A stretch of 52,050 bases of DNA, from assembly GCA_029052015.1 (NCBI GenBank), contig JAIDJW010000143.1:1-52050 (forward strand), read 5' to 3'. The stretch's first letter is position 1; every line of letters starts with the position of its first letter. A program made the position numbers and the translations under genes. The DNA is from Paramuribaculum sp. (GTDB taxonomy: Bacteria > Bacteroidota > Bacteroidia > Bacteroidales > Muribaculaceae). The notes under the pieces are model-generated. The model searched no databases. It saw only the letters and a list, made by a program, of their open reading frames with translations, and was not told the origin of the DNA. This document shows positions 2,203 through 46,947 of this stretch, one piece after another.

Positions 2203-3174
2203 TTATCTGGAGTCACGAAGCTGAGTCAGCTCGAATGTACCCGACATATTCTGGACTTCAATCTTGCCGCTGAGAATCTCAAAAAAGAAATCGCGTATGC
2301 GCTCCACGCTCAAAGTGGCAGGATTTCCCGATGCATCCGGACCTAAATCATACGTTTTCAGCAGTTGTGAGCCCAGACTCGCCGCTGTGAGCAGAAAATG
2401 ATTGTGAAACTTGTCTGTGTCGATAAGGTCTGCCGCGAGCACCTTGCCCACAACCGTGTAACAGCGCAGAGTACGGCGCACATCCTCTTCCGTCAGAGTC
2501 GACTTGACCTCGTCGGTATTGAAATCCATAGGTATTTTGCCGCTATCGGGGCTTTGTGGCAAACCGCGGTAGAGGGCGCCGAGATCGGCGAGCGAGAGAT
2601 TAAACATACGTGTGCCAGGAGTGGCGCTGAGTTTCTCTATCGAGAAGGCGCTGGGCAGCAGCAGATAGATGTCGCCCGCAATCCTTACTGCCGGGGCATT
2701 GAATGTACCTATGATAGAATTTGTCAGCTCTATATCCTGCGTGGCGAAAACTCCGCCGATAACAACGCAGTTTTCAAGTATCACCTCATCGGCATATATG
2801 CTGCCGGCAACAAAAGCGTTGACAAGCGTCACAGTCTTGCCATTAACATCGGAGTAGAATGTTGGACGACATCCGGCTGCGCGCGACACGATTGAGTTTG
2901 CCGAGCCCACGCTTTTGCGCATCTTTACCGAACCGGTGTTGTCTGAACTGACATACAACTCGGTCTGGGCGAAAACCGCCCCCTGGATATCAACATCGCC
3001 GGCACGCGCCTCGATGCGGTTGCCGAAAATCGGCCCCTCGACGATTGTGTCGCCGGTAAAGATGATATTGCGGTTGAGCTCCGCGATTTTTTCAGGGAGA
3101 ATTGATCCCCGGACAAGATTATCCTTTAATATGACATCGGTTTCGTTAAACCTTATTTCCTTTAATTCTTTCAT
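2203..3174 (-). CDS. bactofilin-like beta-helix protein, last gene of the SPFH cluster
   Basis: The 323-residue product starts best at MKELKEIRF (3174); an in-frame ATG at 3231 would overlap the upstream gene. Residues about 15-190 are a ladder of short strands and turns with recurring small residues (IIFTGDTIVEGPIFG, VDIQGAVFAQTELYV, NAFVAGSIYADEVILENCVVIGGVFATQDIELTNSIIG), the signature of a right-handed beta-helix such as bactofilin/polymer-forming cytoskeletal domains. Residues about 195-323 form a helical C-terminal region. There is no signal peptide or membrane segment, so it is probably cytoplasmic or membrane-peripheral. It lies 10 bases after its upstream neighbour and ends flush against the convergent gene. 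Scaffold function is inference from fold and context; an ordinary beta-helix protein is the alternative. Confidence 0.7.
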   Translation of the reverse strand: MKELKEIRFNETDVILKDNLVRGSILPEKIAELNRNIIFTGDTIVEGPIFGNRIEARAGDVDIQGAVFAQTELYVSSDNTGSVKMRKSVGSANSIVSRAAGCRPTFYSDVNGKTVTLVNAFVAGSIYADEVILENCVVIGGVFATQDIELTNSIIGTFNAPAVRIAGDIYLLLPSAFSIEKLSATPGTRMFNLSLADLGALYRGLPQSPDSGKIPMDFNTDEVKSTLTEEDVRRTLRCYTVVGKVLAADLIDTDKFHNHFLLTAASLGSQLLKTYDLGPDASGNPATLSVERIRDFFFEILSGKIEVQNMSGTFELTQLRDSR

Positions 3175-3184
3175 GGTCGAATTT

Positions 3185-4231
3185 TTAATCTTTTTGTTGG
3201 TGTGTATCTGACGCAATTGCCGATGTTGCATCGAGATTGAAAAGCGAGGACATATAGCTTCTCACTCTGTCGGCATGAGCATCGTTGCCGGTGATATTCT
3301 CCACAATGAGGGTGTTGTAGCATGACCGTATGCGTCCGGCATTGCCCGCACTAACCCTGGCGCTCCAGCTCTCCGACTCCATGCCGGAACCGATGGCTGC
3401 GGCGCGCCGGGAGTCTATCATCTGCGACGGATAAGTGGAGTGCTGCAGCCCCTGCGCTCCGCTCACCGTCTCGACGTATGCCACCGGCACATAGTGCACT
3501 CCGGAAACGGAAGCGTCAAGAAGGCAATGATTCAGCAGTCGGTCCATGTTCTGCTGGTGGCGCAGAAAAGAGTTTGCCCGGCCTATCGACTGCATGGCGT
3601 CACGCTTTGCTATCGAGGCGGCTATGCGTGCGTGCAATGCCGACCCTTCAGATGCTCCGACAGCTATCATTGCCGCTCCCTCCGAAGTTTCAGCCGAAAG
3701 CGCATCTGCCTGCCGCTTGAACTTAAACGCGGGCTGATCAAGAGAGTATATGCGGTTTTCGAGTTCATTGTCAAGGTCGGTAAACAGCTTTGTGTACCTC
3801 TCGCGAAGCCTGCGGTAGTCGTTTGACATCTGCGTCTGCTTTGCCACGCAACTTTTGGCCAGCTCGCGCAGATGAATGAGGTGCGCGTCGATATTGGCCC
3901 GCAATTCCGCAATCTGCTGGCTGATCTCGCTCTGTACGGTTTTGAAAAAACCTTTCACAATGGTCGACCCCACCTTCTGGGCCGCCTCGCCGATAGAAGC
4001 TACCTGGGCGGCTTCCGTGGCTACCACGCTGCCCGTGAGCATACCCACACCGGTGTTACACTGCGCCACAGAGGCGTCGAAAGGATCGGTGTCGACATTA
4101 ACATTGACTGTCACTGTCTCGTATGCCGTGCCGGAGTACGATGTTGTGCCGCCTGACTGCGATGCCGGATAGCTTACACTGCCGCTGTAGTGCACCGCTA
4201 TGGTTTTGGTGAATGATCTGGTGTAACTCAT
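3185..4231 (-). CDS. helical protein, paralogue B of a tandem pair (unknown function)
   Basis: The product is 348 residues without signal peptide or membrane segment. It has a Ser/Thr/Tyr-rich N-terminus (residues about 1-45), then a long helical core that aligns with the next upstream gene: VDTDP near residue 46, then F-T-x3-S-x-ISQ-x2-A-x-LR, a D-HL motif, M-x2-DY, RY-x-K and a conserved LDQPAFKF. The core looks like a helical bundle or coiled coil. The start overlaps the stop of paralogue A by four bases (ATGA), implying translational coupling and perhaps a defined ratio or heteromer. I do not recognise the family. Neighbours (SPFH protein, coiled-coil membrane protein, beta-helix) suggest a structural role. 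Confidence 0.75.
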   Translation of the reverse strand: MSYTRSFTKTIAVHYSGSVSYPASQSGGTTSYSGTAYETVTVNVNVDTDPFDASVAQCNTGVGMLTGSVVATEAAQVASIGEAAQKVGSTIVKGFFKTVQSEISQQIAELRANIDAHLIHLRELAKSCVAKQTQMSNDYRRLRERYTKLFTDLDNELENRIYSLDQPAFKFKRQADALSAETSEGAAMIAVGASEGSALHARIAASIAKRDAMQSIGRANSFLRHQQNMDRLLNHCLLDASVSGVHYVPVAYVETVSGAQGLQHSTYPSQMIDSRRAAAIGSGMESESWSARVSAGNAGRIRSCYNTLIVENITGNDAHADRVRSYMSSLFNLDATSAIASDTHQQKD

Positions 4232-5154
4232 AGCGCTCCGTCCTTCAGGGTTGACATTTGGGCTGCGTTAAACATCTTCATCGCCATATCCTTTGCGCGC
4301 TGCGACATGCCAGACGAATCGACAAGCCTGCCGAACTCTCCGGCGAGCGCCCGCGACACCGGCGCGGGAGTCCACTGCGCATTCACGGCAGCCGCCGACA
4401 ATGCGGTGCGTATGGTGCCCTGCGCCTGCTGCGAGATGCCATGGTCGGTAACGTACACCGCGGTAGAGCGGTTGTCTGACGCGTCTATACGGCTCTCGCA
4501 CACCATCGCGGGATAAAGAATATGTCTGGAGGCTTCGCTGATATTCTCCGTCAACAGCACTTTGGCGGTCATATCATTGAGCTCGCGCGAACCTTCGAGA
4601 AAGCGCGAGGCGCTTCGCACCACCTGCATTCCGCGATATTTAATATTCGACGCTATTATATGCTGGCTCTGCTTCACGCTCTCCTCCTGCGACAGCGGCA
4701 CTATGGCCGTAAGCTGCGACGTGCGGTTTGTCACCTGCTCCATATCCTTTGTGGCGAAGTCCATCACCGGCCGGTCAAGCTCATACACTCTCTGCTTGAG
4801 ATTTCGGTTAATGGTGGTGAATGTCTTCAGATAGCGCGCGCTCGTGAGGTTATAGTCACGCTCCATGCGGTTGCGTATGGCTACAAGCTGCTTGCGCTGC
4901 TGGTTTAGCTGCATGAGATGCGAATCGACCTCGCTGCGCAATTTTGCCATCTTCTGCGAAATCTGCGAGCGTATGAGGGTATAGAATCCGCGGTTGACAT
5001 TGGAGCAGACATGCTCGGCGGCATCCTGCTCTGCTTTTATCACCGCCGCCTTCATTCCAACAACGGCCGCAGTGGTGCCGTTGATGTTATGGGTCACTGT
5101 GTTTATGCTGTGGGCCATCGGATTGGTATCCACAACGCAATCTATATATGCCAT
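4228..5154 (-). CDS. helical protein, paralogue A of a tandem pair (unknown function)
   Basis: The product is 308 residues, cytoplasmic by appearance. It opens with MAYIDCVVDTNPMAHSINTV and continues as a mostly helical protein with an aligned core shared with paralogue B: IRSQISQKMAKLRSEVDSHL, then a basic heptad-like stretch, RMERDYNLTSARYLKTF, and RVYELDRPVMDF. It lacks the extended Ser/Thr/Tyr N-terminus of paralogue B, so its shared VDT motif sits near residue 8 instead of 46. Similarity is clear along roughly the first 150 core residues and weak after that, which points to an old duplication. It lies 27 bases after the large coiled-coil gene in the same operon. No enzyme motif is visible. 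Confidence 0.75.
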   Translation of the reverse strand: MAYIDCVVDTNPMAHSINTVTHNINGTTAAVVGMKAAVIKAEQDAAEHVCSNVNRGFYTLIRSQISQKMAKLRSEVDSHLMQLNQQRKQLVAIRNRMERDYNLTSARYLKTFTTINRNLKQRVYELDRPVMDFATKDMEQVTNRTSQLTAIVPLSQEESVKQSQHIIASNIKYRGMQVVRSASRFLEGSRELNDMTAKVLLTENISEASRHILYPAMVCESRIDASDNRSTAVYVTDHGISQQAQGTIRTALSAAAVNAQWTPAPVSRALAGEFGRLVDSSGMSQRAKDMAMKMFNAAQMSTLKDGAL

Positions 5155-5181
5155 GATTCTGTGACTTTGGAATGTTAGACA

Positions 5182-7347
5182 TCAATTGCCAGAAACCGGC
5201 GGAACAGGTGGTGTCGGAGGCACCGGAGGAACGGGAGGAACGCCTGATGGCTCGTTGTCATCAGATTCTTCTCCTGACTCTTCACCGGCTGCTTCATCTT
5301 CCTCATACTCCTCATCGGAATATTCTTCGCTCTCGCTGTCAGTATCGTCATTTTCGGGCTCTTCATCTTCGGGCTCTACCTCGACTTCACTTATACCGGC
5401 AACCTCAGAGCCGGCAGACACTTCCGGCTGCATTTCCGGAGACTGCTCCGGAGTTTCTCCTGCATTTTCCCCAGTCTCCGGCATCTGACTCTCCGCTTGC
5501 GGCTCCTCGGCTGCAGCATTGTCAAGCTCCTCAAGAGCATTTCTGGCTATCGACGGCAAATTGAGCGATATGTGCTCGAAGGTTATCGGCGCCACATTTG
5601 GCTGCGGCGGTAGCTGAGAGCTCTTGGCAAAGAGCGGGTTGACCTCCGCAAGATTCTTGCGGCGGCTGTCCATGTCGTGTATCTCGCTCGCTGCGGTAGC
5701 CACTTCGTTTGAATATCCGTCGCGCAGCTTGGCGTCGTAGTACTCCACATGCCCGAAGCGCTCCGCCTTGAGGTCTATATCCTCCTTCAGGCGGTCCATA
5801 TAATCCTCGAAATCGTTCTGCACACGCTGGAACTCCTGACTCTGCATCTCGAATGCCGCAAGACTCTGCGCAGCATTGTCAGTGCTCTCCACTACCGATG
5901 CTTCAAGCGAGCCGGAATTTGCCATGGAGTCCTCGGTGCGCTGGAGCGCTATGAGAGTGTTGTATGAAGCAACATAGTCGCGCAGACTCGCCTGCATGAG
6001 GTTGATGATGTCGGCGCTCTCGGCGCGGTTTGCACGATAGAAGGCATCGGTATCCTGATGCCACTTGTTGAGATAGCTCAGCTTCTGGTCCTTGATATGG
6101 TTGTATATTCTCAGGCGCTCCACACGGTTTTCAGTCATAAGGTTCTGCACCACCGGCGCCACAATCTCCTCATAGAGCTGGTGAACACCGAAAGGCATTG
6201 TGGTAACCGAACCGTCCTCTGCGGTCCATGTACCTGACACCGGATTGAATTTCACGCGTGAACTTGGGCGCAGGCTGAATGGCTCATATCCCTGCACATC
6301 GTCGGTGAAATCGAATTTTTCATTGCGTATGCGCTCGATTTCCTCAAATTCAAGCACCGGCGAGTAGTGATTGTAAGGAGCTTTGAGTATTCGATAAAGA
6401 AGTTTGTTTGACTCAAGCACAACCTTGCCTACCGAAGCCACCTTCAGCGCCGAGATTGCCTGAACGGAGCCGGCTATCGTCACCATCAGCGACTTGAGCA
6501 CATCCTCAAACTGCTGTGTTTCGGTTGACAACGATTTTTTCAGACGGTTGATTTCCTGAAATCGCCTTACACCCGGCTCATATTTCTCGCTATCGAAAAC
6601 ATTGAGCACCGGAGCGTCCTCCGGAATATCTCGTGTGCCGAAGGTGTGCAGCCTGTCAAGCTCGGGTGAATTATCGAGCACAAGGGGCAGGCTCACCGAA
6701 GTCGTGTCGAGATCGTCCATACAGTAGGAGATCGTGCGCAGAGAGCGGTCAAGTGCCCCGAGATAATCGTTTTGAGTCACTTCCTGGATAGAAAGCGAAT
6801 AGTCGTCGGTCTCTATTGTCTCGGTTTCTTCCGAACTCTCGATAACCGGTGCAATCTTCGACAAATCCTCAAGCTTACCTATAGTCTGAATCAAAAGGTC
6901 ATTCTGCTTGGGCTGCGAGAGGGTGACAACGCTGTCGGCAACGCTTCCGGTGTAGTCCACTATAAAGCTTTTGTCCTCATACTTTACCTGGTCCGCAACC
7001 GGCACGTATGCCACGCCTAATTTTGTCACCGCATAGCCTCGGAAAATCTCGTCGTGGAGCTTACGGAACTCGTCGATACGCTCGTCGATGCCCTGTATCT
7101 GCTTCTCATAGCCGCTCTTTTTTATGAAATAGACGAAAAATAGGATGATTGTCAGAAACCACACCCACAGCCCGGAGATTTTTTGCTGCAAAGCAGCTTT
7201 TTCCTCTTCGAGTGAGGCGATGTTGCGCTCGATACGTTCTTCCTCTTCAACTATCTTCTCGGCGGCCTGCCGATAGTAGTTGAAAAGAATTTTCGCTTCG
7301 TCCTGATACACGTTTTCGGAATCAGGGAAGATTCTACCTGTATTCAT
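5182..7347 (-). CDS. large coiled-coil membrane protein with acidic and proline-rich tail
   Basis: The 721-residue product has an N-terminal heptad-rich helix (about 25-58, EEEERIERNIASLEEEK), one membrane helix (about 59-76, WVWFLTIILFFVYFIKK), a further helix, then a long soluble region with several helical stretches (about 100-610). The last ~107 residues are low complexity: a Glu/Pro segment, then a run almost entirely of Glu, Asp and Ser, and finally PPVPPVPPTPPVPPV. With no signal peptide and basic residues just after the helix, topology cannot be fixed. Proline repeats of this kind commonly bind SH3-, WW- or profilin-like partners; none is identified here. It sits between the four-helix protein and the paralogue pair, in the same direction. 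I do not recognise the family. Confidence 0.8.
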   Translation of the reverse strand: MNTGRIFPDSENVYQDEAKILFNYYRQAAEKIVEEEERIERNIASLEEEKAALQQKISGLWVWFLTIILFFVYFIKKSGYEKQIQGIDERIDEFRKLHDEIFRGYAVTKLGVAYVPVADQVKYEDKSFIVDYTGSVADSVVTLSQPKQNDLLIQTIGKLEDLSKIAPVIESSEETETIETDDYSLSIQEVTQNDYLGALDRSLRTISYCMDDLDTTSVSLPLVLDNSPELDRLHTFGTRDIPEDAPVLNVFDSEKYEPGVRRFQEINRLKKSLSTETQQFEDVLKSLMVTIAGSVQAISALKVASVGKVVLESNKLLYRILKAPYNHYSPVLEFEEIERIRNEKFDFTDDVQGYEPFSLRPSSRVKFNPVSGTWTAEDGSVTTMPFGVHQLYEEIVAPVVQNLMTENRVERLRIYNHIKDQKLSYLNKWHQDTDAFYRANRAESADIINLMQASLRDYVASYNTLIALQRTEDSMANSGSLEASVVESTDNAAQSLAAFEMQSQEFQRVQNDFEDYMDRLKEDIDLKAERFGHVEYYDAKLRDGYSNEVATAASEIHDMDSRRKNLAEVNPLFAKSSQLPPQPNVAPITFEHISLNLPSIARNALEELDNAAAEEPQAESQMPETGENAGETPEQSPEMQPEVSAGSEVAGISEVEVEPEDEEPENDDTDSESEEYSDEEYEEDEAAGEESGEESDDNEPSGVPPVPPVPPTPPVPPVSGN

Positions 7348-7416
7348 GGCATTGCTGATAAATGATAAAATGGTTTATAAAAACGGGTTAATTTAATTAT
7401 GTGTGTCTTATTAGTT

Positions 7417-8124
7417 CTATGCGAGACACGCCCTGCTGCGCCGGTTGCACAGCATCTCCATCTCGTCAAGAAGAGCGGCTATATTTTTTTCGTTGAGCGT
7501 ATATGCCGGTATTGCCCTTCGCATATCTCCGGCTATCTCAACAATGCGCCGCTCTGTGTCGGCAGCCTCGGTGCTAAGGCAGGGAGACGTGTAGCGCAGA
7601 GTCTCCGCAAGCTTGTCTATACGCGCCTTGACATCCGCGGACACTCCTTCCGCGTGAGCAGTCTGCTCAGCCAGCGCACGCACGGCACGCCGTGCCTCGT
7701 CGATTCCTCCCTGACGCTGAGACTCGGCTGCGTGCACTCTTGCCGCCTTGGCAGATGACGTGATGCCGGCGAAGATACCGCAGGCGAGCACAAACAGCAG
7801 CACAAGCTGCACTATCAACTGATATCTGAACGCCACAATGCTGCCTGTGTTCATCAGCAGCATAGCGCCGAGGGCCGCAAAGGCATACAGCCCCTTGACA
7901 TACCATCTTATGCCGATACCCGCCGCCTGCCGACCGGCCGGGTCATCAAGACTGACTGCCGGAGTAGCGATTGTGAACACCGCAAGCTGAAACACAATGC
8001 TGGCAACGACAATATTGAGTGTCAGGATATTTTCCGGCATTTCGCCGCCGAAAACCAGGAATGCGGCGATAATGAGAGCTTCGCCAGCTGCCGCGAGTAT
8101 ATAATAAAACGTTTTGTTCATCAT
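7417..8124 (-). CDS. four-helix integral membrane protein with helical cytoplasmic domain
   Basis: The 235-residue product has four predicted membrane helices (about residues 6-25, 33-53, 74-93 and 100-122) followed by an Ala/Arg/Glu-rich helical domain to the end (AESQRQGGIDEARRAVRALAE; TLNEKNIAALLDEMEML). The start is ATGATG, so either Met could be used. It lies nine bases downstream of the SPFH gene and 69 bases upstream of the large coiled-coil gene. No catalytic or binding motif is recognised. A membrane anchor or partner for the SPFH protein is inference from operon position; B. subtilis YdjG/YdjH, which accompany the SPFH protein YdjI, are an analogous but not evidently homologous arrangement. 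Confidence 0.75.
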   Translation of the reverse strand: MMNKTFYYILAAAGEALIIAAFLVFGGEMPENILTLNIVVASIVFQLAVFTIATPAVSLDDPAGRQAAGIGIRWYVKGLYAFAALGAMLLMNTGSIVAFRYQLIVQLVLLFVLACGIFAGITSSAKAARVHAAESQRQGGIDEARRAVRALAEQTAHAEGVSADVKARIDKLAETLRYTSPCLSTEAADTERRIVEIAGDMRRAIPAYTLNEKNIAALLDEMEMLCNRRSRACLA

Positions 8125-8133
8125 CGTTTGCGT

Positions 8134-9414
8134 TTAGCGTTTGTTGCCGCAGCGGGCGCAGAATTTAGAGCCGGGAGGGAAAGGAGCCCCACAACGGCTG
8201 CACACATCGGCGCCGGCAGCCCCTACAGGCTTGCCGCAGTTGGGGCAGAAAGCGGCTCCGGGCTGAAGCTTGGTGTCGCAACCCGGACAGCGCGCCTCTA
8301 TAACCAGAGGATTGCCGCAGCTCACACACCGACGGGCATTTTCGTCATTGTCGGTGCCGCACGCCGGGCAGGGATTATATTTGTGCCCGCAATTGGGACA
8401 ATAATCCATATTGGAGGGAAAGCGCTTGGCACAGCCTGCGCAGTACACCATCCTCACCTGCTGAGGCTGCTGCATGGGCTGCTGAGCACCGGGGGCGCCG
8501 GGCACAGCCCCCGGAGCAAAAGTGGGCTGCTGATACTGCGGGGTCATCATACCGGCGCCAACTCCTCCTCCGCCGCCCATGCCGCCCATCATGTTGATGG
8601 CCATGAGACCGCCGAGAAGTCCGCCGTTGTTGTCGCCGCCGAAGCTGCCTATTGCATTGTTGGCGGTGTTGAACATCTGCTCCTGCTGCCATGTGTGGCC
8701 CGTAATGCTCTGGGCACTCTGGCTCGACAGGGCTTCCTTGACCTTACGCCCTTCGGGGGTGGTGGTGTCAATATCTATATTGCTGACATAGAATTTGGTG
8801 AGCTCCAGCCCAAGGTCGTCCCAGAAAGGAGCCATCTGCTGCCGCAGCACATTCGAAATCTGGTCGAGATAGCCCGATATCTGTTTGTAGCCCACGTGAT
8901 TTGCGGTCATGAACTGCACAATAGCGCTCTTTGCTTTGGTTGTGAATTCGCCGGTAAACTGGCTCGTCATGTCAAACTCTGTGAAATCGACTTTTGGTCC
9001 CACCACTTTTACAAGAAACTTCTCCGCGTCAATAATCCTCAGACCGTACTGACCGTCTGCGGTCAGCGGGAGCATGGTGTTGTAGTCGCTGTCGTGTATA
9101 CTAAGGCTGCCGATGCTCCAGCCTATGTTGAAAGCCTGGATTCTGTTGACAAACCATATCTCTGCGGTAAAGGGATTTTTGCCTCCGAAAGGAAATCCGT
9201 AAAGATTGCGCAGTATAGGAAGATTCTCGGTGTTGAGAGTGTGGCGCCCCGGACCAAACTTGCCCATGAGCTTGCCTTTGGAAAAGAGCACTGCCTCCTG
9301 ACTCTCCTGCACAATCAGCTGTGTGTAAGTACTTAGATTGTTTTCCGGATATTTATGGGCATAGATGACAGGCATTCCCTGCGGTTGCCATATCACCGCA
9401 TCAATAATAGCCAT
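8134..9414 (-). CDS. SPFH-domain protein with four C-terminal zinc ribbons (YdjI / virion-core-like type)
   Basis: The 426-residue product has an N-terminal SPFH (band 7) domain (about 25-240), including LIVQESQEAVLFSKGKLMGK and GPGRHTL, a Gly/Met/Gln/Pro-rich flexible linker (about 255-320), and four tandem four-Cys zinc ribbons. The cysteines fall at 325/328/339/342, 349/352/363/366, 376/379/390/393 and 405/408/419/422, each spaced CxxC-x10-CxxC. SPFH proteins form membrane-associated rings or microdomains, and the SPFH-plus-zinc-ribbon form is often annotated as virion core protein and includes B. subtilis YdjI of a PspA-type stress operon. It is the first gene of the cluster behind a good promoter. 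A role in membrane stress or organisation is inference; the architecture is secure. Confidence 0.88.
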   Translation of the reverse strand: MAIIDAVIWQPQGMPVIYAHKYPENNLSTYTQLIVQESQEAVLFSKGKLMGKFGPGRHTLNTENLPILRNLYGFPFGGKNPFTAEIWFVNRIQAFNIGWSIGSLSIHDSDYNTMLPLTADGQYGLRIIDAEKFLVKVVGPKVDFTEFDMTSQFTGEFTTKAKSAIVQFMTANHVGYKQISGYLDQISNVLRQQMAPFWDDLGLELTKFYVSNIDIDTTTPEGRKVKEALSSQSAQSITGHTWQQEQMFNTANNAIGSFGGDNNGGLLGGLMAINMMGGMGGGGGVGAGMMTPQYQQPTFAPGAVPGAPGAQQPMQQPQQVRMVYCAGCAKRFPSNMDYCPNCGHKYNPCPACGTDNDENARRCVSCGNPLVIEARCPGCDTKLQPGAAFCPNCGKPVGAAGADVCSRCGAPFPPGSKFCARCGNKR

Positions 9415-9462: not shown

Positions 9463-9494
9463 CAAATATAACCATTTTTTATCTTTTGTGCAAA
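9463..9494 (-). promoter_or_regulatory. Bacteroidetes-type promoter of the SPFH cluster
   Basis: On the minus strand, TTTG (9491-9494) is followed after 20 bases by TATATTTG (9463-9470), matching the Bacteroidetes -33 TTTG and -7 TAnnTTTG elements. Transcription would start near 9457, about 40 bases before the SPFH start codon. Confidence 0.65.
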
Positions 9495-9631: not shown

Positions 9632-12097
9632 TTATTGTACTTTGTAGAAGGCGCGGATGCGGTTGGGCTCAGTACGCGGACGACTGCCCGGGTCGTAAGT
9701 CACTTTATTATTCCAAACGACATAATGATGTGTCTGACTATTCACATTTTCACCTGCCGCATCAATTCTTGTAGCTCGGGCTCTGTCCTCATCTTCACGT
9801 TGCCCTGTTGGTCCTAAGGCGGTCTCCCTAACCTCTTTTCCAGCAGATGCTGACCAGTAAAGGATATCCTGGAATTCCGGGAATGTATTCCAATAGTTGA
9901 TGAGACCGACTTCAAGTTCGCGGATACCGGGCAAGTACCATTTGCTTTCATAAATCGATCCATCTGCATTTCGCTTATTCTTGCCCATAGCATAGTGGAA
10001 AGCGGTCTCCGGCTTTTCTGTGTTAAACATCTGCACACTACTCATTGGTACAGAACTTGCGCCGATGACCCAACTCGACATCGCCTGACCATTGGAATAG
10101 ACTTCGTATGATTCTGTGGAACCTTTAAATCCGGAAGTAGACGTATTATCAAGTCCCCAGGGCAGACCGCTGTAAAGCTCGGCGGGCATATCATGCTTGT
10201 CAAGAGGGTCTTTGTGGTCAAGATATTCCTCGTAATATTCCATCCAGCCGTCAATTGTCTCGCCTGATATTGTGCCTCGCACTCTGAGCAGGGCTTTCTG
10301 GTCAATTTCGAGGATGCGGTCGCGATCCTCGCCCTCATCATTGTGGTAATGGATGCGGACGCGGGCGGTGCGGTCGCCATAATTGGCGGGGTTATTACTC
10401 TCCGGCACATTCTCGTCAATATAGAAGTAGATGCGTGTGCGCGTTCCGCCCTCGGGGTCGCTGCCCTCAAAGTTGTTGCCTACACTTACGCTGGTATTCG
10501 CAGCCAGAGTATTGGTGACAAGGTCATGCGTGAAGTAGCGGCGGGCTCCGCGTCCGGCGGTGAGCACACCTCTGTCATATATATAGGTAGTGTTGTCAAG
10601 ACCAGCCGGTTCGGTGGTCATATTTATAGCCGGCACCTTTTCCATTCGCAACCAGCCGGGCATCTGTCCGGTAAGCTCGTCGGCAAGTATCTCTATGTCG
10701 ACCGTGCTCAGGCAGGTGGCACTCCCCTCCTCCATGCGCATGAAGTAGATGTCCATCGGCAGGGCGGTGGCATGGGCGTCAATCTTGCGCTCGTTGACGA
10801 TGGAGATGTACACCGGATTGTCGGTGCGCACATTCACTCGGCCGTCAAAGGTGTAGACAGTGGGGTCGTCATTGCGCACATAGTCGAGACCGCGGATGGA
10901 TATGCGGTTTTTGTAGCAGTGATTGCGGCGCACCTCGAAGTTGTCGACGGTATTGTTGCCGAGATACACTGTGAACTGCGCATCGTATTTGAGCCCCTGA
11001 TGGGTGATGTAGCGCCCTTTCATCACAAACGCGCTGGCTGTCTCCTTCTGTGCGATGGTCGGTTTCCAGCGCTGCTTGAGGTCGCCGTTTTTATCGTTTT
11101 CAACGATTGCGTCGGGATAGTCAGCCTCTCCGGTTGCCTTGCGCACATTCTCGTAGGTATAGTAAGTGAAGAGCATCGCCTCCTGGCCGTCGATGAGTGT
11201 GCGGTCGCTGACCTTGATGGTTTTTTCGGCCCTGAGGTCTGCACCCTTGCCAATAAGAGTCGTGTCGTTGGCACCAACTTCAGTAAAGGGCACGCATATC
11301 GGCATATTCTTGATACCGTACTCGGTGACGCGGAGCGTGGGCAGCTGATGGTCGTGGCTCGTCTGGTTGGCATCAAGACGCACCTGCACATCCACTCTCG
11401 CCATGAGCGCCCTCATGTCAAGATCTATCTTGCCGTCCTGAGCAAGTATCGCCTCATCAGCACCGCTCTTATACAGCACTACCATAGGCATGCCTCCGGC
11501 GGGGAGCTTGGTAATCTCATCGTCCTTGCGCTCCTGCGGGCGATAATACCAGTTCATGAGGTCGCTGAGGTGGGTGATGGTTATCTCTTTGGTCGGGTCG
11601 GAAGCATCGCCATGACATATCTTGCCGTCGTCTGTTATGTCTGCAACACGAAACTTGCATTCTTTGTGGTCACAGCCCGGGTCATCACATATCGCGTTAG
11701 CTACCGCGAAAATCTGCACGCCCTTAAGAGCGGTCTGACCGACAAACGCATCCTTTGGCACACTCACCGCCGCGAGCTGGCTATAGCCGAGGTCCACAAC
11801 ATGATATGGCTGCCAGGGCACATCTGCATCGGGATTTGGCTGAAGAAAATTGCCGTCGCTGTCAAAAAAGAAGAGGTGCAGGCGGTTTATCCGCTTCTCC
11901 TCAGCCTCTTTAGGCTCAAAATTTTCATTGCCGAAGGCGCGCGACATCAGCACCTGCGGCAGCATGTCGGTGCAGCGCGCGGTGATGGTCACAGCGCCCT
12001 CAGGCGCAGGCTCGGGAGCGTCAAATTTTTCCGAGGCGCACCCGCTGAGGAGCGCCGCGGCTGTGAGTGCGGAGAGTATTATATGGTGTAGTTTCAT
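9632..12097 (-). CDS. DUF4906-type fimbrial lipoprotein, probable tip or anchor subunit
   Basis: The 821-residue product has a lipoprotein signal peptide ending in LLSGC (Cys about residue 20). A fimbrillin-like N-terminal region follows (AVTITARCTDML; RINRLHLFFFDSDGNF), then long beta-rich domains typical of DUF4906 proteins found at the end of Bacteroidales fimbrillin loci. The C-terminal 200 residues contain WYLPGIRELEVGLINYW and YWSASAG, reminiscent of the FISUMP/DUF1566-type C-lectin-like modules seen on surface proteins. It is the last gene of the operon, one base after the preceding fimbrillin gene. By analogy with FimC-E and Mfa3-5 in Porphyromonas, large accessory lipoproteins cap or anchor the pilus. 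The exact role here is inference. Confidence 0.75.
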   Translation of the reverse strand: MKLHHIILSALTAAALLSGCASEKFDAPEPAPEGAVTITARCTDMLPQVLMSRAFGNENFEPKEAEEKRINRLHLFFFDSDGNFLQPNPDADVPWQPYHVVDLGYSQLAAVSVPKDAFVGQTALKGVQIFAVANAICDDPGCDHKECKFRVADITDDGKICHGDASDPTKEITITHLSDLMNWYYRPQERKDDEITKLPAGGMPMVVLYKSGADEAILAQDGKIDLDMRALMARVDVQVRLDANQTSHDHQLPTLRVTEYGIKNMPICVPFTEVGANDTTLIGKGADLRAEKTIKVSDRTLIDGQEAMLFTYYTYENVRKATGEADYPDAIVENDKNGDLKQRWKPTIAQKETASAFVMKGRYITHQGLKYDAQFTVYLGNNTVDNFEVRRNHCYKNRISIRGLDYVRNDDPTVYTFDGRVNVRTDNPVYISIVNERKIDAHATALPMDIYFMRMEEGSATCLSTVDIEILADELTGQMPGWLRMEKVPAINMTTEPAGLDNTTYIYDRGVLTAGRGARRYFTHDLVTNTLAANTSVSVGNNFEGSDPEGGTRTRIYFYIDENVPESNNPANYGDRTARVRIHYHNDEGEDRDRILEIDQKALLRVRGTISGETIDGWMEYYEEYLDHKDPLDKHDMPAELYSGLPWGLDNTSTSGFKGSTESYEVYSNGQAMSSWVIGASSVPMSSVQMFNTEKPETAFHYAMGKNKRNADGSIYESKWYLPGIRELEVGLINYWNTFPEFQDILYWSASAGKEVRETALGPTGQREDEDRARATRIDAAGENVNSQTHHYVVWNNKVTYDPGSRPRTEPNRIRAFYKVQ

Positions 12098-12098
12098 A

Positions 12099-13316
12099 TC
12101 AGTTGATAATGATGTCGTTGTCAGAGCCCTCCTGCCAGTACTCTATGCCGTTGGCGGTGAGCATGAGCAGTATCTGGTCACCGAGGAAGTTGATATTCAG
12201 GCGATAGTTTGTGCCCGCCTGAGGCATGCGCCCGAGATCGAAGTCAACAGTCTTTTCATACTCGACACCGTCGAAAGTATACTTGACGATAATATGCTTG
12301 TCTGTGCCCAGATATTTGCCGGGACCTCCGGTGATATTCGGCAGCAGGAGCACAACAGTGCCGGCGGGTTTGGTGTCGGTCGCTCCGGCGGTCTTGGCTG
12401 ACCGCGCGGGCACCTCTACCGATTTGACAATACGGTTGACTCCTTCACCGCTTGCTTCGAGAAACTGGAAGGTGCCGTAATAAAGGTCACTTCCGACAGT
12501 TATTTGCGGGTCGGAGGGTGAAAAATCTATGGTAGCATCGCGATAGAAGCCGCCGTTGAGAGTCACGCTGTTGACCTTCACCGCACCGGCCTCGCTATAG
12601 TTATTGAGCTGCACGCTCAGACCGCTCATTATATGTCTGAATTTCAAATCCACGGCACCGCTTGCGCGCACATGGTCGGTGGTGATGGCATACATAGCGT
12701 CGGTGGTGGCGTCTGGGTGACGCTCGATGCGGTTGTCCGATGAGCCCACGCCATTGCCGTGAGGGTCGTTGCTGCTGCCGTAGACCACCGTATATTTCAG
12801 ACGTGGCGCGCCGAGGTCATTGCCCTTTTCTGACGACACCTCAAATCTTCCGTCGTAGGGGTAGTAGGCAACGAAGGTGTAGCGAAAAGCCGAGGGGTCC
12901 ACACCCGTGGCAGACTCGCCCAACATAGATTTGGTGTACCAAAGCCCTACCTTTTTGTCATCGGTGGATTTATAAAAGCATCCGTTGCCTTCAACCTGAA
13001 GTTCAGCCCGGTCAAGCACATCGGGGCAAACGAGGGATTTCTTTACTTCCCATACGGAGGAACCCGATGTTGGCTCATCCAGCGAGGTGTCGTTGACATG
13101 ACGCGGAATACAGTAGCCCATCACACCGAAAGATTCGCCCTCGGGCAGGTAGCTGTTGATGAGATTCGCCCTTGAAGCGTCATCGGAGTCAATGACGAGG
13201 GGGCGGCAGAATGTGATAGTGGCGTCAGTGTCCGGAGCGTCAGGCGCGTCTCCCGAACAGGAGGCGAGCGCGAGTGCTGCCGACAGCGCGACGATATGTA
13301 AAGCGGTTAACTTCAT
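12099..13316 (-). CDS. fimbrillin-family lipoprotein 3
   Basis: The 405-residue product carries a lipoprotein signal (LALASC, Cys about residue 19) and the fimbrillin-like Mfa/FimA layout: an early ITFCRPLVIDSDDASRA segment (Arg is the usual protease-processing context in this superfamily), a central DLKFRHIMSGLSVQL motif, which is the conserved 'FRH..S/A.L' signature, and a C-terminal strand set ending GTNYRLNINFLGDQ. FimA-superfamily subunits are exported as lipoproteins, trimmed by gingipain-like proteases after Arg/Lys and polymerised by strand exchange. It is longer than the two preceding fimbrillins and adjoins the DUF4906 gene, so it may be an accessory rather than stalk subunit; that assignment is inference. 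Confidence 0.85.
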   Translation of the reverse strand: MKLTALHIVALSAALALASCSGDAPDAPDTDATITFCRPLVIDSDDASRANLINSYLPEGESFGVMGYCIPRHVNDTSLDEPTSGSSVWEVKKSLVCPDVLDRAELQVEGNGCFYKSTDDKKVGLWYTKSMLGESATGVDPSAFRYTFVAYYPYDGRFEVSSEKGNDLGAPRLKYTVVYGSSNDPHGNGVGSSDNRIERHPDATTDAMYAITTDHVRASGAVDLKFRHIMSGLSVQLNNYSEAGAVKVNSVTLNGGFYRDATIDFSPSDPQITVGSDLYYGTFQFLEASGEGVNRIVKSVEVPARSAKTAGATDTKPAGTVVLLLPNITGGPGKYLGTDKHIIVKYTFDGVEYEKTVDFDLGRMPQAGTNYRLNINFLGDQILLMLTANGIEYWQEGSDNDIIIN

Positions 13317-13368
13317 TGTCTGAGTCTGGTGGATGGAGAGATGTATATATGTGTATGGTCGCTATGCG

Positions 13369-14409
13369 TTATCTTGGCAGGTCGATATTGAGGTCGTTGA
13401 TATTTACGGGAGCCGTTGTCCAGTCCTCTACAACCGGAATATCGAAGAAAATGTGAGTGTTAAGCGCAAAGTTATATGAATAGCTCTTGCCGGGCAGCCA
13501 GGTGCCGGCGAGAGTTGAGGTTGCGGTCTGCTCGCCCAAAGAGCCTTCGGTAAACTCATAGACTATTTCAATCCTAAGGGCTGTGAAATTCTGAGGAATG
13601 GCGAGAATGACTTCATCGCCGAAAATATCCACAGGCTCGTTACCGAGCTGCAACCCTTCAGCACCTATTGTTGCGGTATAGACGGCAGTCCGCTCGCCAT
13701 GAGTCCAGCCGCCGAGCGATGAGCCGTCGGCGCTGAATGTGGTGCCGTCCCACGAACCGGAGTCGGATATGCCGCTGACTCTAAACGACTTGACCTTCAC
13801 CTTACGCGCATCGGCGTCCGGCTTGCCGTCGGAGCCGAGGTAACGGTCGTCAGAGCGCCCCCTGAAGGTGACGCGGCTCAGCAGGTGGCGAAACTTCAAA
13901 TCGACCGCAGGCTGAGTGCTGCCGTCAGCAAAAACCATGCGCCTGTCGGATGCAGACATCAGATCTGTGCCTCTTGCCGTGAAACCATTGACAGCTATAT
14001 GTGAATCAGCACCGCTGCCGGTGGTATATACAACTGTAGCTCCCTGAGGCAGCACGGCGGGATATAGAGCACGGAATTCGTATGTAAAGCCGGGCATCCA
14101 GTACTCCTCGTTGTCGTATGACCAGCTTCCGGAACTGAATGTCACAGTGCGCGCGTCAAACACCGGGAAAGTGCCGGTGACGTCAGACGGATTATAAAAC
14201 AATCCCCACACATTGAATGCGCATCCTTCGGTCTCGAAGGTGGATTTGGTTGCGGCAGCGCGGGAATCTGCCGCCGACACTTTAAATGTCAGCGGCATAC
14301 GGCCATCGTCCGGCTCATCGACAGTGGAGCTTGAACAGGCAGCGAGGGCAGCGACACAAACAGTCGCCGCCGCAGTGCGCCATATTCTTGAAATGGAGTT
14401 CAAATCCAT
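13369..14409 (-). CDS. fimbrillin-family lipoprotein 2
   Basis: The 346-residue product has a lipoprotein signal (VAALAACSSS, Cys about residue 25), an N-terminal domain with LTFKVSAADSRAAATKS, a YDNEEYWMPGFTYEFRALYP block typical of fimbrillins, the conserved DLKFRHLLSRVTF motif, and a C-terminal domain with TWLPGKSYSYNFALN. It closely parallels the next upstream fimbrillin in motif order, so the two are probably an amplified pair. Six bases separate it from that gene and 52 non-coding bases from the following one. It is a likely pilus subunit; whether stalk or accessory cannot be told from sequence alone. Confidence 0.87.
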   Translation of the reverse strand: MDLNSISRIWRTAAATVCVAALAACSSSTVDEPDDGRMPLTFKVSAADSRAAATKSTFETEGCAFNVWGLFYNPSDVTGTFPVFDARTVTFSSGSWSYDNEEYWMPGFTYEFRALYPAVLPQGATVVYTTGSGADSHIAVNGFTARGTDLMSASDRRMVFADGSTQPAVDLKFRHLLSRVTFRGRSDDRYLGSDGKPDADARKVKVKSFRVSGISDSGSWDGTTFSADGSSLGGWTHGERTAVYTATIGAEGLQLGNEPVDIFGDEVILAIPQNFTALRIEIVYEFTEGSLGEQTATSTLAGTWLPGKSYSYNFALNTHIFFDIPVVEDWTTAPVNINDLNIDLPR

Positions 14410-44049: not shown

Positions 44050-46026
44050 ATGGCAACTTCAATATCGGACCTCCCATATATAGATGAGGAATATGATTTA
44101 AAAACAGAGTATTATGTCAAGGGGCTGGAAGCATTTATCAGAAATGCGCAGACCCCGATGACTATTGCTCTGCAAGGAGAATGGGGAAGCGGAAAAACGT
44201 CATTGATGACCCGTCTTAACCGGGTCTTATGCCATGGTGAGAATTCTGATTTTATCGGAATTACAATCAACACCTGGGAATACTCCATGCTTGCGTCGCC
44301 GGAAGAAACCGTCTATAATATCCTCGGTAAGCTGGTAAAAGATGTAAGCAAAAACGACTCCAAAGCCAAAAATGTATTTAACCGTTTTCTTCGTGGTACC
44401 GGAAGATTCCTGTATCGAGGTGGTCGCGAACTCCTTAAAGCTGTTCCTGTTGCAGGGACAACACTTGGCTTTGCCATAGAGGCAATAAATGTACCCACAG
44501 AAAATCCGTATATCACCAATAAGGAAGAGGAAGCATCCCTATCGGAAGTAAGAGAGGCGTTGGAAACTGCCGTCAACAACCGGATAACCAAAGAGGCACA
44601 AAAGAAGGGAATTATAGTTTTTGTTGATGATCTGGATCGTCTGAATCCCCCTGTGGCTGTTGAGATTCTTGAGCTGTTCAAGAATGTATTTACCATTGAA
44701 AATTGTATCTTCATATTAGCTATTGACTATGAAGTTGTGGTAAAAGGACTTGAACCTAAATTCGGGAAACTTACAAATCAGAATGAGAGAGAGTTCCGCT
44801 CATTCTTCGACAAGATAATACAGGTACCGTTCTCACTCCCTGTAAATAGCTATCGACCTATTAGTTTTGTAGTGACATCATTGAACAAGATAGGGTATAT
44901 ACAAACAAAATTGACAGATGAACAACAAAACCTGTTTGAGGCTGTGGTCAAAGCATCAGTAGGTAACAATCCACGCTCTATAAAACGATTGATAAATACC
45001 CTCTCTCTACTTGATTGCATAGCCAAGGAACAAGTGATTAGCAATAATTCTGCCCATAATTATGGAACCGACATAAAATTAACCGGTGACAATCTCATAC
45101 TGGACAAATTGCTGAATTTCATAGTTGTCGCCATACAGATATGCTATTCTCGGATTTATTCGCTTTTGGTTAAGAAACCGAATTTCACCGAATGGAATCG
45201 AGAATTTGCATCCCGCGAAGGGATAGATGCGGCCATTGACGATGAGGATGCTGACTGGAAAGATATTCTTGAAGCGGCATGCACCGCCGACAAATATCTT
45301 AATCTGCGCCATCTTGATATCTTGAAGTTGTTTTCGATGATTATAGATATCGTCAGTCAGAGCGGTGGCAATATCAATGAAAATATCAATGCAAGACTAA
45401 AGGATATTCTTGACAAAGCAGCCGTGACAGGAGTGAGCGCCAATGTAAAAGTGGCAGATTTTGACAAAAAGGCGTTCATTCAGAAACTTTATGATAATGT
45501 TGGCAGACGCATTCGGCAGCTTCGCCCTGACATAGAAGACATTAAAGTCAAGAACAATACCGGCAACGGCGGATTTAAATTCAGGGATGAGAATAACCGT
45601 GGATATGACATCCGATTCATTCCATCGTATGAACCGGATAATACTGTGACTCTGACAATAGAAATGAGCACGAAAATAACACGCTCGGAGGATATGCTCA
45701 ATAAGGCGTTGGATGACCTGCTGGAGAATAATCAGTTGACAAACGCCTTGTCAGAGCTCGATGCAAAAATATCTCCATTGCTGCAGAAACTGTCCTTTTT
45801 CGAAAGTAAACACTCCAATGACGATTTGTGGTTTACCTCTTACTCGGAAGAATTGCGTTATATGCACGAGAAAGGCTTTATGTCAGGCGATGTCACACAC
45901 GATGCCGTGTATAGGCTTAAGTTGCAGAAAGCATCGGATTTCGAAGACGGTAGAGTTGTTGATGCTATTGCTGATGTCGTTATTGCAAATTATGATTTTA
46001 GAAAAACGATGTCAACATACAGATAA
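44050..46026 (+). CDS. KAP-family P-loop NTPase
   Basis: The 658-residue protein has Walker A GEWGSGKTS (Lys49) and Walker B IIVFVDDLDRL (Asp193-Asp196), with the helical insertion between them expected for KAP-family NTPases and a Gly-rich hydrophobic stretch (AVPVAGTTLGFAIEAI, about 131-146) that may contact a membrane. Residues about 200-330 hold the arginine-bearing sensor region (NNPRSIKRLINTL). The C-terminal 300 residues are unassigned and helical. KAP NTPases include phage-exclusion and animal signalling proteins such as Kidins220 and F-plasmid PifA. Context with a zinc-finger protein and a glycosylase-like protein suggests a defence role, which is inference. Confidence 0.9.
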   Translation: MATSISDLPYIDEEYDLKTEYYVKGLEAFIRNAQTPMTIALQGEWGSGKTSLMTRLNRVLCHGENSDFIGITINTWEYSMLASPEETVYNILGKLVKDVSKNDSKAKNVFNRFLRGTGRFLYRGGRELLKAVPVAGTTLGFAIEAINVPTENPYITNKEEEASLSEVREALETAVNNRITKEAQKKGIIVFVDDLDRLNPPVAVEILELFKNVFTIENCIFILAIDYEVVVKGLEPKFGKLTNQNEREFRSFFDKIIQVPFSLPVNSYRPISFVVTSLNKIGYIQTKLTDEQQNLFEAVVKASVGNNPRSIKRLINTLSLLDCIAKEQVISNNSAHNYGTDIKLTGDNLILDKLLNFIVVAIQICYSRIYSLLVKKPNFTEWNREFASREGIDAAIDDEDADWKDILEAACTADKYLNLRHLDILKLFSMIIDIVSQSGGNINENINARLKDILDKAAVTGVSANVKVADFDKKAFIQKLYDNVGRRIRQLRPDIEDIKVKNNTGNGGFKFRDENNRGYDIRFIPSYEPDNTVTLTIEMSTKITRSEDMLNKALDDLLENNQLTNALSELDAKISPLLQKLSFFESKHSNDDLWFTSYSEELRYMHEKGFMSGDVTHDAVYRLKLQKASDFEDGRVVDAIADVVIANYDFRKTMSTYR

Positions 46027-46092
46027 AAAGCATCTGTTTCGGGAAATGAGACAGCACGCAGTTAATTTTGCTGCTACAAGTACTGCGACATT

Positions 46093-46947
46093 ATGAAAGA
46101 TATAAAGTACAATCCTATTGAAGAGAGAACGCTCAACGACAGACTGGTAAATCTTTATGGTCCAAAAATTCCGGGGCTCTATTCAGCCGTCAAGCCATTG
46201 TTTGATGACCCGGAAGCAATCAAACCGGCGTTGCCGCTCCTGATTGAGCTCAACGATAATGAGGCGTATGAGAACGCCGATTTACACGTAATGGTCTTCG
46301 GCAGGGAAACCAATAACTGGAATGACACCGATGAAAGAGGTGATTGTCCTTATGGCACATACAATTTCAACCTTTCAACTTCAGATGATATCCTGAACGA
46401 AATAAGGGGAAAGCATATCGATGGAGAAGCGGAAATCTACGGACTTGGAGATATTTACCACGCATATTGTTATGAAGACAATGGTGTTGGAAAAACAATT
46501 TTTACGCGAAGACAAAATCAACTGATACAGCAACTCAGGGAGCGTCTTGGCAACTGCAAGGTTGAAGCTGTCTGGAACAACATTTCAAAAATAGGGTGCG
46601 GAGGCACCGACTTCGGTAATAGTTGTCGCAAACCTACAGCTGAGATTCGTAATATCGAACGGGAGTATTTCAACATTGTTGCCGCTGAGGTTGAAATTCT
46701 TCGACCGGACATCATCGTATTCCTTACAGGTTTTTATGCCGATGACGAAATCAAATACAAATTCTGTCTCTCTGATAATGATTTCCAGCCGGTTAAGAAG
46801 GGCATCTTTCTTGACAGAGTAAAAATACCGGGAGTGAGATATGCCGCACGCACAATTCATCCTTCGCGCCAGAGCAAAGAGAATCTGAAGCTCCACTTTG
46901 ATGCTTTGATTGATGATATTGTAGGTGCAATAAGCATTCCACAATAG
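46093..46947 (+). CDS. uracil-DNA-glycosylase-fold-like protein
   Basis: The 284-residue protein is not a standard glycosylase but has a motif order resembling that superfamily: an early HVMVFGRETNNWND (66-79, at the place of the catalytic loop), AVWNNISKIG (159-168), a RPDIIVFLTG strand (204-213) and TIHPSRQ (254-260, at the place of the HPS minor-groove loop). It has no signal or membrane segment. It follows the KAP gene by 66 bases in the same direction. UDG-fold proteins are known in phage defence (for example the Brig1-type glycosylase against modified DNA), which would fit here, but this fold assignment is by eye. An unrelated nucleotide-binding fold remains possible. Confidence 0.6.
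   Translation: MKDIKYNPIEERTLNDRLVNLYGPKIPGLYSAVKPLFDDPEAIKPALPLLIELNDNEAYENADLHVMVFGRETNNWNDTDERGDCPYGTYNFNLSTSDDILNEIRGKHIDGEAEIYGLGDIYHAYCYEDNGVGKTIFTRRQNQLIQQLRERLGNCKVEAVWNNISKIGCGGTDFGNSCRKPTAEIRNIEREYFNIVAAEVEILRPDIIVFLTGFYADDEIKYKFCLSDNDFQPVKKGIFLDRVKIPGVRYAARTIHPSRQSKENLKLHFDALIDDIVGAISIPQ

Follow-up and report, generated by a model that had tools for sequence, protein, structure and literature searches.

In Bacillus subtilis, the pspA-ydjGHI operon encodes an SPFH-zinc ribbon protein (YdjI), the membrane anchors YdjG/H and PspA (PMC8581546, PMC11237479). YdjI has no membrane anchor of its own and depends on YdjG/H for its membrane localisation; it recruits PspA (PMC8581546). HflK/C, which are SPFH proteins of a different kind, are partners of the protease FtsH (PMC2636767). 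Here we analyzed a locus from Paramuribaculum sp. (Bacteroidales, Muribaculaceae; assembly GCA_029052015.1, contig JAIDJW010000143.1, positions 1 to 52,050). This whole stretch of 52,050 nucleotides is referred to as the window. ORF analysis places six open reading frames, g1 to g6, on its minus strand, running from 9414 to 2203. The original prediction had read these genes as one cluster with a possible joint role in a membrane scaffold.

The layout of the genes agrees with the single promoter and the mostly short or overlapping junctions that had been described. A Bacteroidota-type promoter, TTTG-N20-TATATTTG, lies at 9463..9494 on the minus strand (exact pattern match, 80-49 nt before g1). 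A strict match to the motif recurs ahead of g1 in 15 of 72 relatives, whereas the internal control stretches contain none. In order from g1 to g6, the junctions measure 9, 69, 27, -4 and 10 nt, the negative value being a 4-nt overlap between the g5 start and the g4 stop. Median junctions in relatives range from 8 to 23 nt. For g6, the start at 3231 in the ORF list was judged too early because homologues start with MKELKEI. Fimbrillin-like genes lie upstream on the same strand (window 9632-14409), and those at 12099-13316 and 13369-14409 match Mfa_like_1. Elsewhere in the window, the stretch at 44050-46947 has a GC content of ~41%, compared with ~52% around it, and encodes a P-loop NTPase of the KAP family (44050-46026) as well as a 284-aa protein without a match. 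It is possibly an accessory or defence island.

To place the locus among genomes, we scanned 85,462 genomes (one per species) with a profile of g3. This yielded 145 relatives, and the analysis continued with the 80 best. Gene order in these 80 loci was read with profiles of all six genes. The arrangement g1-g2-g3-g4-g5-g6, in fixed order on one strand, is present in 66 of the best 80 of the 145 relatives. Of the 14 incomplete loci, 12 have their missing genes past a contig end. The other two (L091 and L103) carry g3-g6 only, with other genes upstream, and a further genome (G102, locus L022) likewise carries only g3-g6; the g3-g6 core can apparently persist without g1-g2. Presence is also joint: a g4 query detects 9 of 119 same-family genomes and the g6 profile detects exactly those 9. 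Across 59 complete cassettes, pairwise distances of the six proteins are correlated (r = 0.83-0.94), and the correlation between g3 and g6 distances reached at most 0.18 in 200 label shuffles. Such correlations are expected of any co-inherited neighbours, so they demonstrate co-inheritance and not interaction. No seventh conserved gene was found, as recurrent flanking families occur in at most 6 of the 80 loci and at scattered positions. The idea that six unrelated genes are neighbours by chance is refuted by the genome survey and retains practically no probability, as the genes keep their order, occur together and have correlated distances; no point in its favour was found. The six genes are a conserved cassette, and the predicted co-occurrence and conservation of order are strongly borne out. 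In one genome record (JAFVBC01), two contigs carry identical cassettes (L075 and L077), reflecting either a genuine duplication or an artefact of assembly.

The cassette is rare. It occurs in 9 of 119 genomes of the family, in 7 of 295 genomes of the order and in 1 of 346 genomes drawn from the phylum. The single genome in the last set is the window's own, and both g3 and g6 are absent from the other 345 Bacteroidota genomes of that draw. Within the genus, the cassette was found in the window's genome and one other (G105) but not in six further genomes. The carriers are scattered gut and environmental (sediment) Bacteroidota, and they include the isolate genomes of Barnesiella An55, Capnocytophaga sputigena, Labilibaculum filiforme and Bacteroidales bacterium CF. 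In a tree based on g3, g4 and g6, cassettes from Muribaculaceae fall in several separate places, and the copy from G105 (L048) is not the sister of the window's copy. This scattered presence suggests a history of horizontal transfer plus loss. No viral, plasmid or phage carriage was found in searches for g3 in IMG/VR viral contigs and plasmids and for g6 in phages. One locus whose record is labelled Clostridiales (L087) shares a contig with a same-family genome (G094); labels of metagenome-assembled genomes, for example Chitinophaga for L081 or Ignavibacteriae for L097, are therefore not trustworthy alone.

The first gene, g1 (8134..9414, minus strand; 426 aa), encodes an SPFH (Band_7_1) domain, a Gly/Gln-rich linker and four C-terminal zinc ribbons. 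The SPFH/Band-7 assignment is clear (PF13421, E = 2.4e-35, 122.5 bits relative to a cut-off of 24), as is that of the zinc ribbons (PF12773, E = 9.7e-23). The eight CxxC motifs that make up the four ribbons are present in 71 of 73 relatives, and none of the 73 has a transmembrane segment. Cassette-type g1 proteins (E below 1e-200) were detected in seven genomes of the family, every one of them a cassette carrier. The second gene, g2 (7417..8124, minus strand; 235 aa), encodes a membrane protein with a helical C-terminal part. The four transmembrane segments previously proposed are predicted in 65 of 75 relatives and three in the other 10. Pfam matches of g2 are noise and point to no known family, and they include no TPM, NTF2-like or zinc-ribbon model of the YdjG/YdjH type. 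XpaC was considered and rejected, since PF10112 matched just 1 of 47 members (E = 0.003) and nothing in the window's genome.

Judged by sequence, g3 (5182..7347, minus strand; 721 aa) is the best-conserved core of the cassette: in 51 relatives it is 54-71% identical to the window protein. An AlphaFold2 model of moderate confidence (pLDDT 64, pTM 0.33) predicts a helical hairpin (residues 13-65/69-100) whose tip is hydrophobic, a small beta domain, and long helices at 257-327 and 388-477 followed by a disordered tail, with residues 613-721 below a pLDDT of 50. Foldseek searches of this low-confidence model against the PDB found no match below E = 0.001. The tip (aa 57-77; 7117..7179, minus strand) is hydrophobic in 53 of 76 relatives (KD17 > 1.5), and in several it is amphipathic rather than transmembrane, being Trp-rich in a few. 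The acidic, proline-rich tail (aa 606-721; 5182..5532, minus strand) is variable, and based on a scripted count it is net negative in 74 of 76 relatives, with a median charge of -36 and a minimum of -111. After the acidic stretch, the tails of some relatives (for example L086, L063, L056 and L089) end in swappable modules, namely a LEM-like domain (26.6 bits, cut-off 24), an L7/L12 CTD (E = 3.2e-29) or triple zinc ribbons (E = 5.4e-15); a Pfam search of the window's own g3 tail found no such module. In L091 and L103 the tail ends in amphipathic-looking helices. The g3 of G105 is split into frames of 77 aa and 531 aa (L024 and L048), possibly by a frameshift or an assembly error.

The products of g4 (4228..5154; 308 aa) and g5 (3185..4231; 348 aa), both on the minus strand, are helical proteins of no known family, g5 having an N-terminal extension. 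The original prediction that they are paralogues is supported by profile comparison (hhalign probability 100, E = 8.5e-51, over 295 columns). Mean column identity in the g4 alignment is 58%. Comparison of g3, g4 and g5 with 18 PspA sequences by hhalign was negative, and homology of these proteins to PspA/ESCRT-III was rejected.

The last gene, g6 (2203..3174, minus strand; 323 aa), had been called a bactofilin-like beta-helix protein. The AlphaFold2 model is confident (pLDDT 87.4, pTM 0.87) and consists mainly of strands followed by C-terminal helices; the predicted secondary structure is consistent with a beta-solenoid. The model thus supports the beta-helix part of the claim, but Foldseek found no match below E = 0.001 against the PDB or viral models, and no bactofilin was matched. 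The bactofilin part stands only weakly. PF04519 is the most frequent weak match (42 of 48 members), and the sole PDB profile match is bactofilin A (E = 0.2). However, three inspected PF04519 matches score 19.6-21.8 bits, below the family cut-off of 27.9, and the window's g6 has no PF04519 match. Comparison of the g6 profile with 30 canonical Bacteroidales bactofilins also fails (probability 1%). Canonical bactofilin membership was thus rejected. Canonical bactofilins scoring over the PF04519 cut-off are present in 82 of 99 genomes of the order and in 0 of 59 of the window's family.

Based on these data, we propose that the cassette products assemble as a scaffold on the cytoplasmic face of the inner membrane, most likely used for inner-membrane organisation or protection under envelope stress; we give this reading a probability of roughly 40%. 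By analogy with YdjI and its anchors YdjG/H, g1 would oligomerise and g2 would tether it to the membrane. The modelled g3 may form the core, its hairpin tip dipping into the membrane and its long helices reaching into the cytoplasm, while the swappable acidic tail could recruit clients or space the array apart. The paralogues g4 and g5 might assemble on g3 as a hetero-oligomer, taking the place of PspA in the Ydj module, and the predicted beta-solenoid g6 would join the components into a patch or ring. We infer the seating of g4/g5 and of g6 on g3 only from their co-inheritance. The use under envelope stress is a prediction of the Ydj analogy, not a result.

A joint membrane-scaffold function is favoured by the conserved order, the short junctions, the identical set of carrier genomes, the correlated distances and the lack of an extra neighbour. 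The link to the membrane comes from g2, with 3-4 predicted transmembrane segments in 75 of 75 relatives, and from the g3 tip, which is hydrophobic in most. Against it are the amphipathic character of the tip segment in several relatives, the lack of PspA-like homology and the weak link between g6 and bactofilins. An accessory role in conflict or in a particular niche would likewise be in keeping with the patchy presence. More tentatively, the cassette may build an inner-membrane polymeric patch or organelle-like platform of an unknown type, in which g3-g6 would be a new-family core, the SPFH assembly would be optional and the exchangeable acidic tails would choose clients.

Two other functions should be set beside the scaffold. 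The patchy distribution, the two same-genus copies that are not sisters in the tree and the swappable g3 tails would be expected of an accessory defence or conflict system, i.e. a horizontally spread, membrane-bound sensor-effector with g1-g2 as sensors of membrane disturbance and g3-g6 as the responding part. We consider this unlikely, however, because PADLOC gives no clear match for the six proteins (the best, LeoBC to g5, has E = 9.6e-5 and is of the coiled-coil type), none of the six has an enzyme or toxin domain, and the cassette was not found in the viral, plasmid or phage searches. A defence-island context was also rejected, as ordinary chromosomal genes make up most of the flanks and few of 100 flanking genes match PADLOC at E <= 1e-15 (20 models, one protein each). 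The L7/L12, zinc-ribbon and LEM-like modules of some g3 tails, together with the HflK/C-FtsH partnership (PMC2636767), would fit a client-handling platform. Here an SPFH cage and scaffold would bring particular proteins or ribosomes to the membrane to be folded, inserted or turned over, with the tails as recruitment arms. This too is improbable, since the cassette encodes no protease, chaperone or ATPase and has none as a conserved neighbour, and the window's g3 tail is without such a module.

A bactofilin-type cytoskeleton for cell shape or envelope positioning, with g6 as the putative filament and the other proteins as its anchors, would build on the frequency of weak PF04519 matches and on the bactofilin A match. 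We regard it as very doubtful, given that the inspected matches fall below the cut-off and that the canonical profile comparison fails; furthermore, the unit has no conserved neighbour and hence no peptidoglycan enzyme at its side. The membrane scaffold is the best available reading; on it, the cassette would encode an SPFH-organised membrane assembly, with a four-protein core of no known family.

The cassette ties five unannotated conserved families into one testable unit that moves among gut and sediment Bacteroidota, and the carrier isolates make it accessible to genetics. If it is a membrane scaffold, SPFH proteins would work with partners other than PspA, NfeD and FtsH. The phylum would also have an alternative membrane-protection machine, PspA being present in about one fifth of the sampled Bacteroidales genomes (21 of 99 in the order, and 0 of the 4 cassette genomes in that set).

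Comparison with known systems was made at the level of families and of whole modules. Searches with g2-g6 found no Pfam or NCBIfam match above the curated cut-offs; in PADLOC and PHROGs, the matches were weak and of the coiled-coil type. Member-by-member Pfam searches of g2, g3, g4 and g6 gave matches only in the variable g3 tails, apart from the weak PF04519 matches of g6. By these searches, g2-g6 are five conserved families without annotation. In line with the original prediction, a search of mostly open-access literature found no description of this gene set and no paper naming SPFH and bactofilin together. TelA proteins are helical and membrane-linked, as cassette proteins are. However, the TelA toxic-anion-resistance family (PF05816) matches nothing in the genome of the window, where all six genes are present, and it does not appear in the top 25 families by number of matches to g3 or g4 members; this reading was rejected. 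Bactofilins (PF04519) share with g6 a predicted beta-rich fold and a weak sequence match, but g6 has 323 aa with C-terminal helices and its profile is not alignable to the canonical Bacteroidales ones.

Distant SPFH-zinc-ribbon genes of the same family occur in other small operons (L129-L135), with a conserved hydrophobic protein of 114-125 aa in L132-L135. Such operons (for example L133, L134 and L135) resemble the cassette in having an SPFH-zinc-ribbon gene, followed by a hydrophobic protein of ~115-125 aa and, in some, by zinc-ribbon proteins. They differ in that their g1 homologue is only remotely similar (E = 1e-45 to 1e-58, compared with below 1e-200 for cassette copies) and nothing matches g2-g6. 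The analogy to the Ydj/PspA module made in the original prediction survives in part. Both have an SPFH protein with a C-terminal zinc ribbon and without a membrane segment (YdjI and g1), an integral membrane partner encoded alongside, and helical proteins in the unit. In contrast, the cassette has no PspA, which is also without a match in the window's genome, its g2 matches no TPM, NTF2 or zinc-ribbon model, and it adds g3, g6 and the g4/g5 paralogue pair. On our best reading, the Ydj/PspA module is the nearest described system, and the cassette is likened to it without being a member of it.
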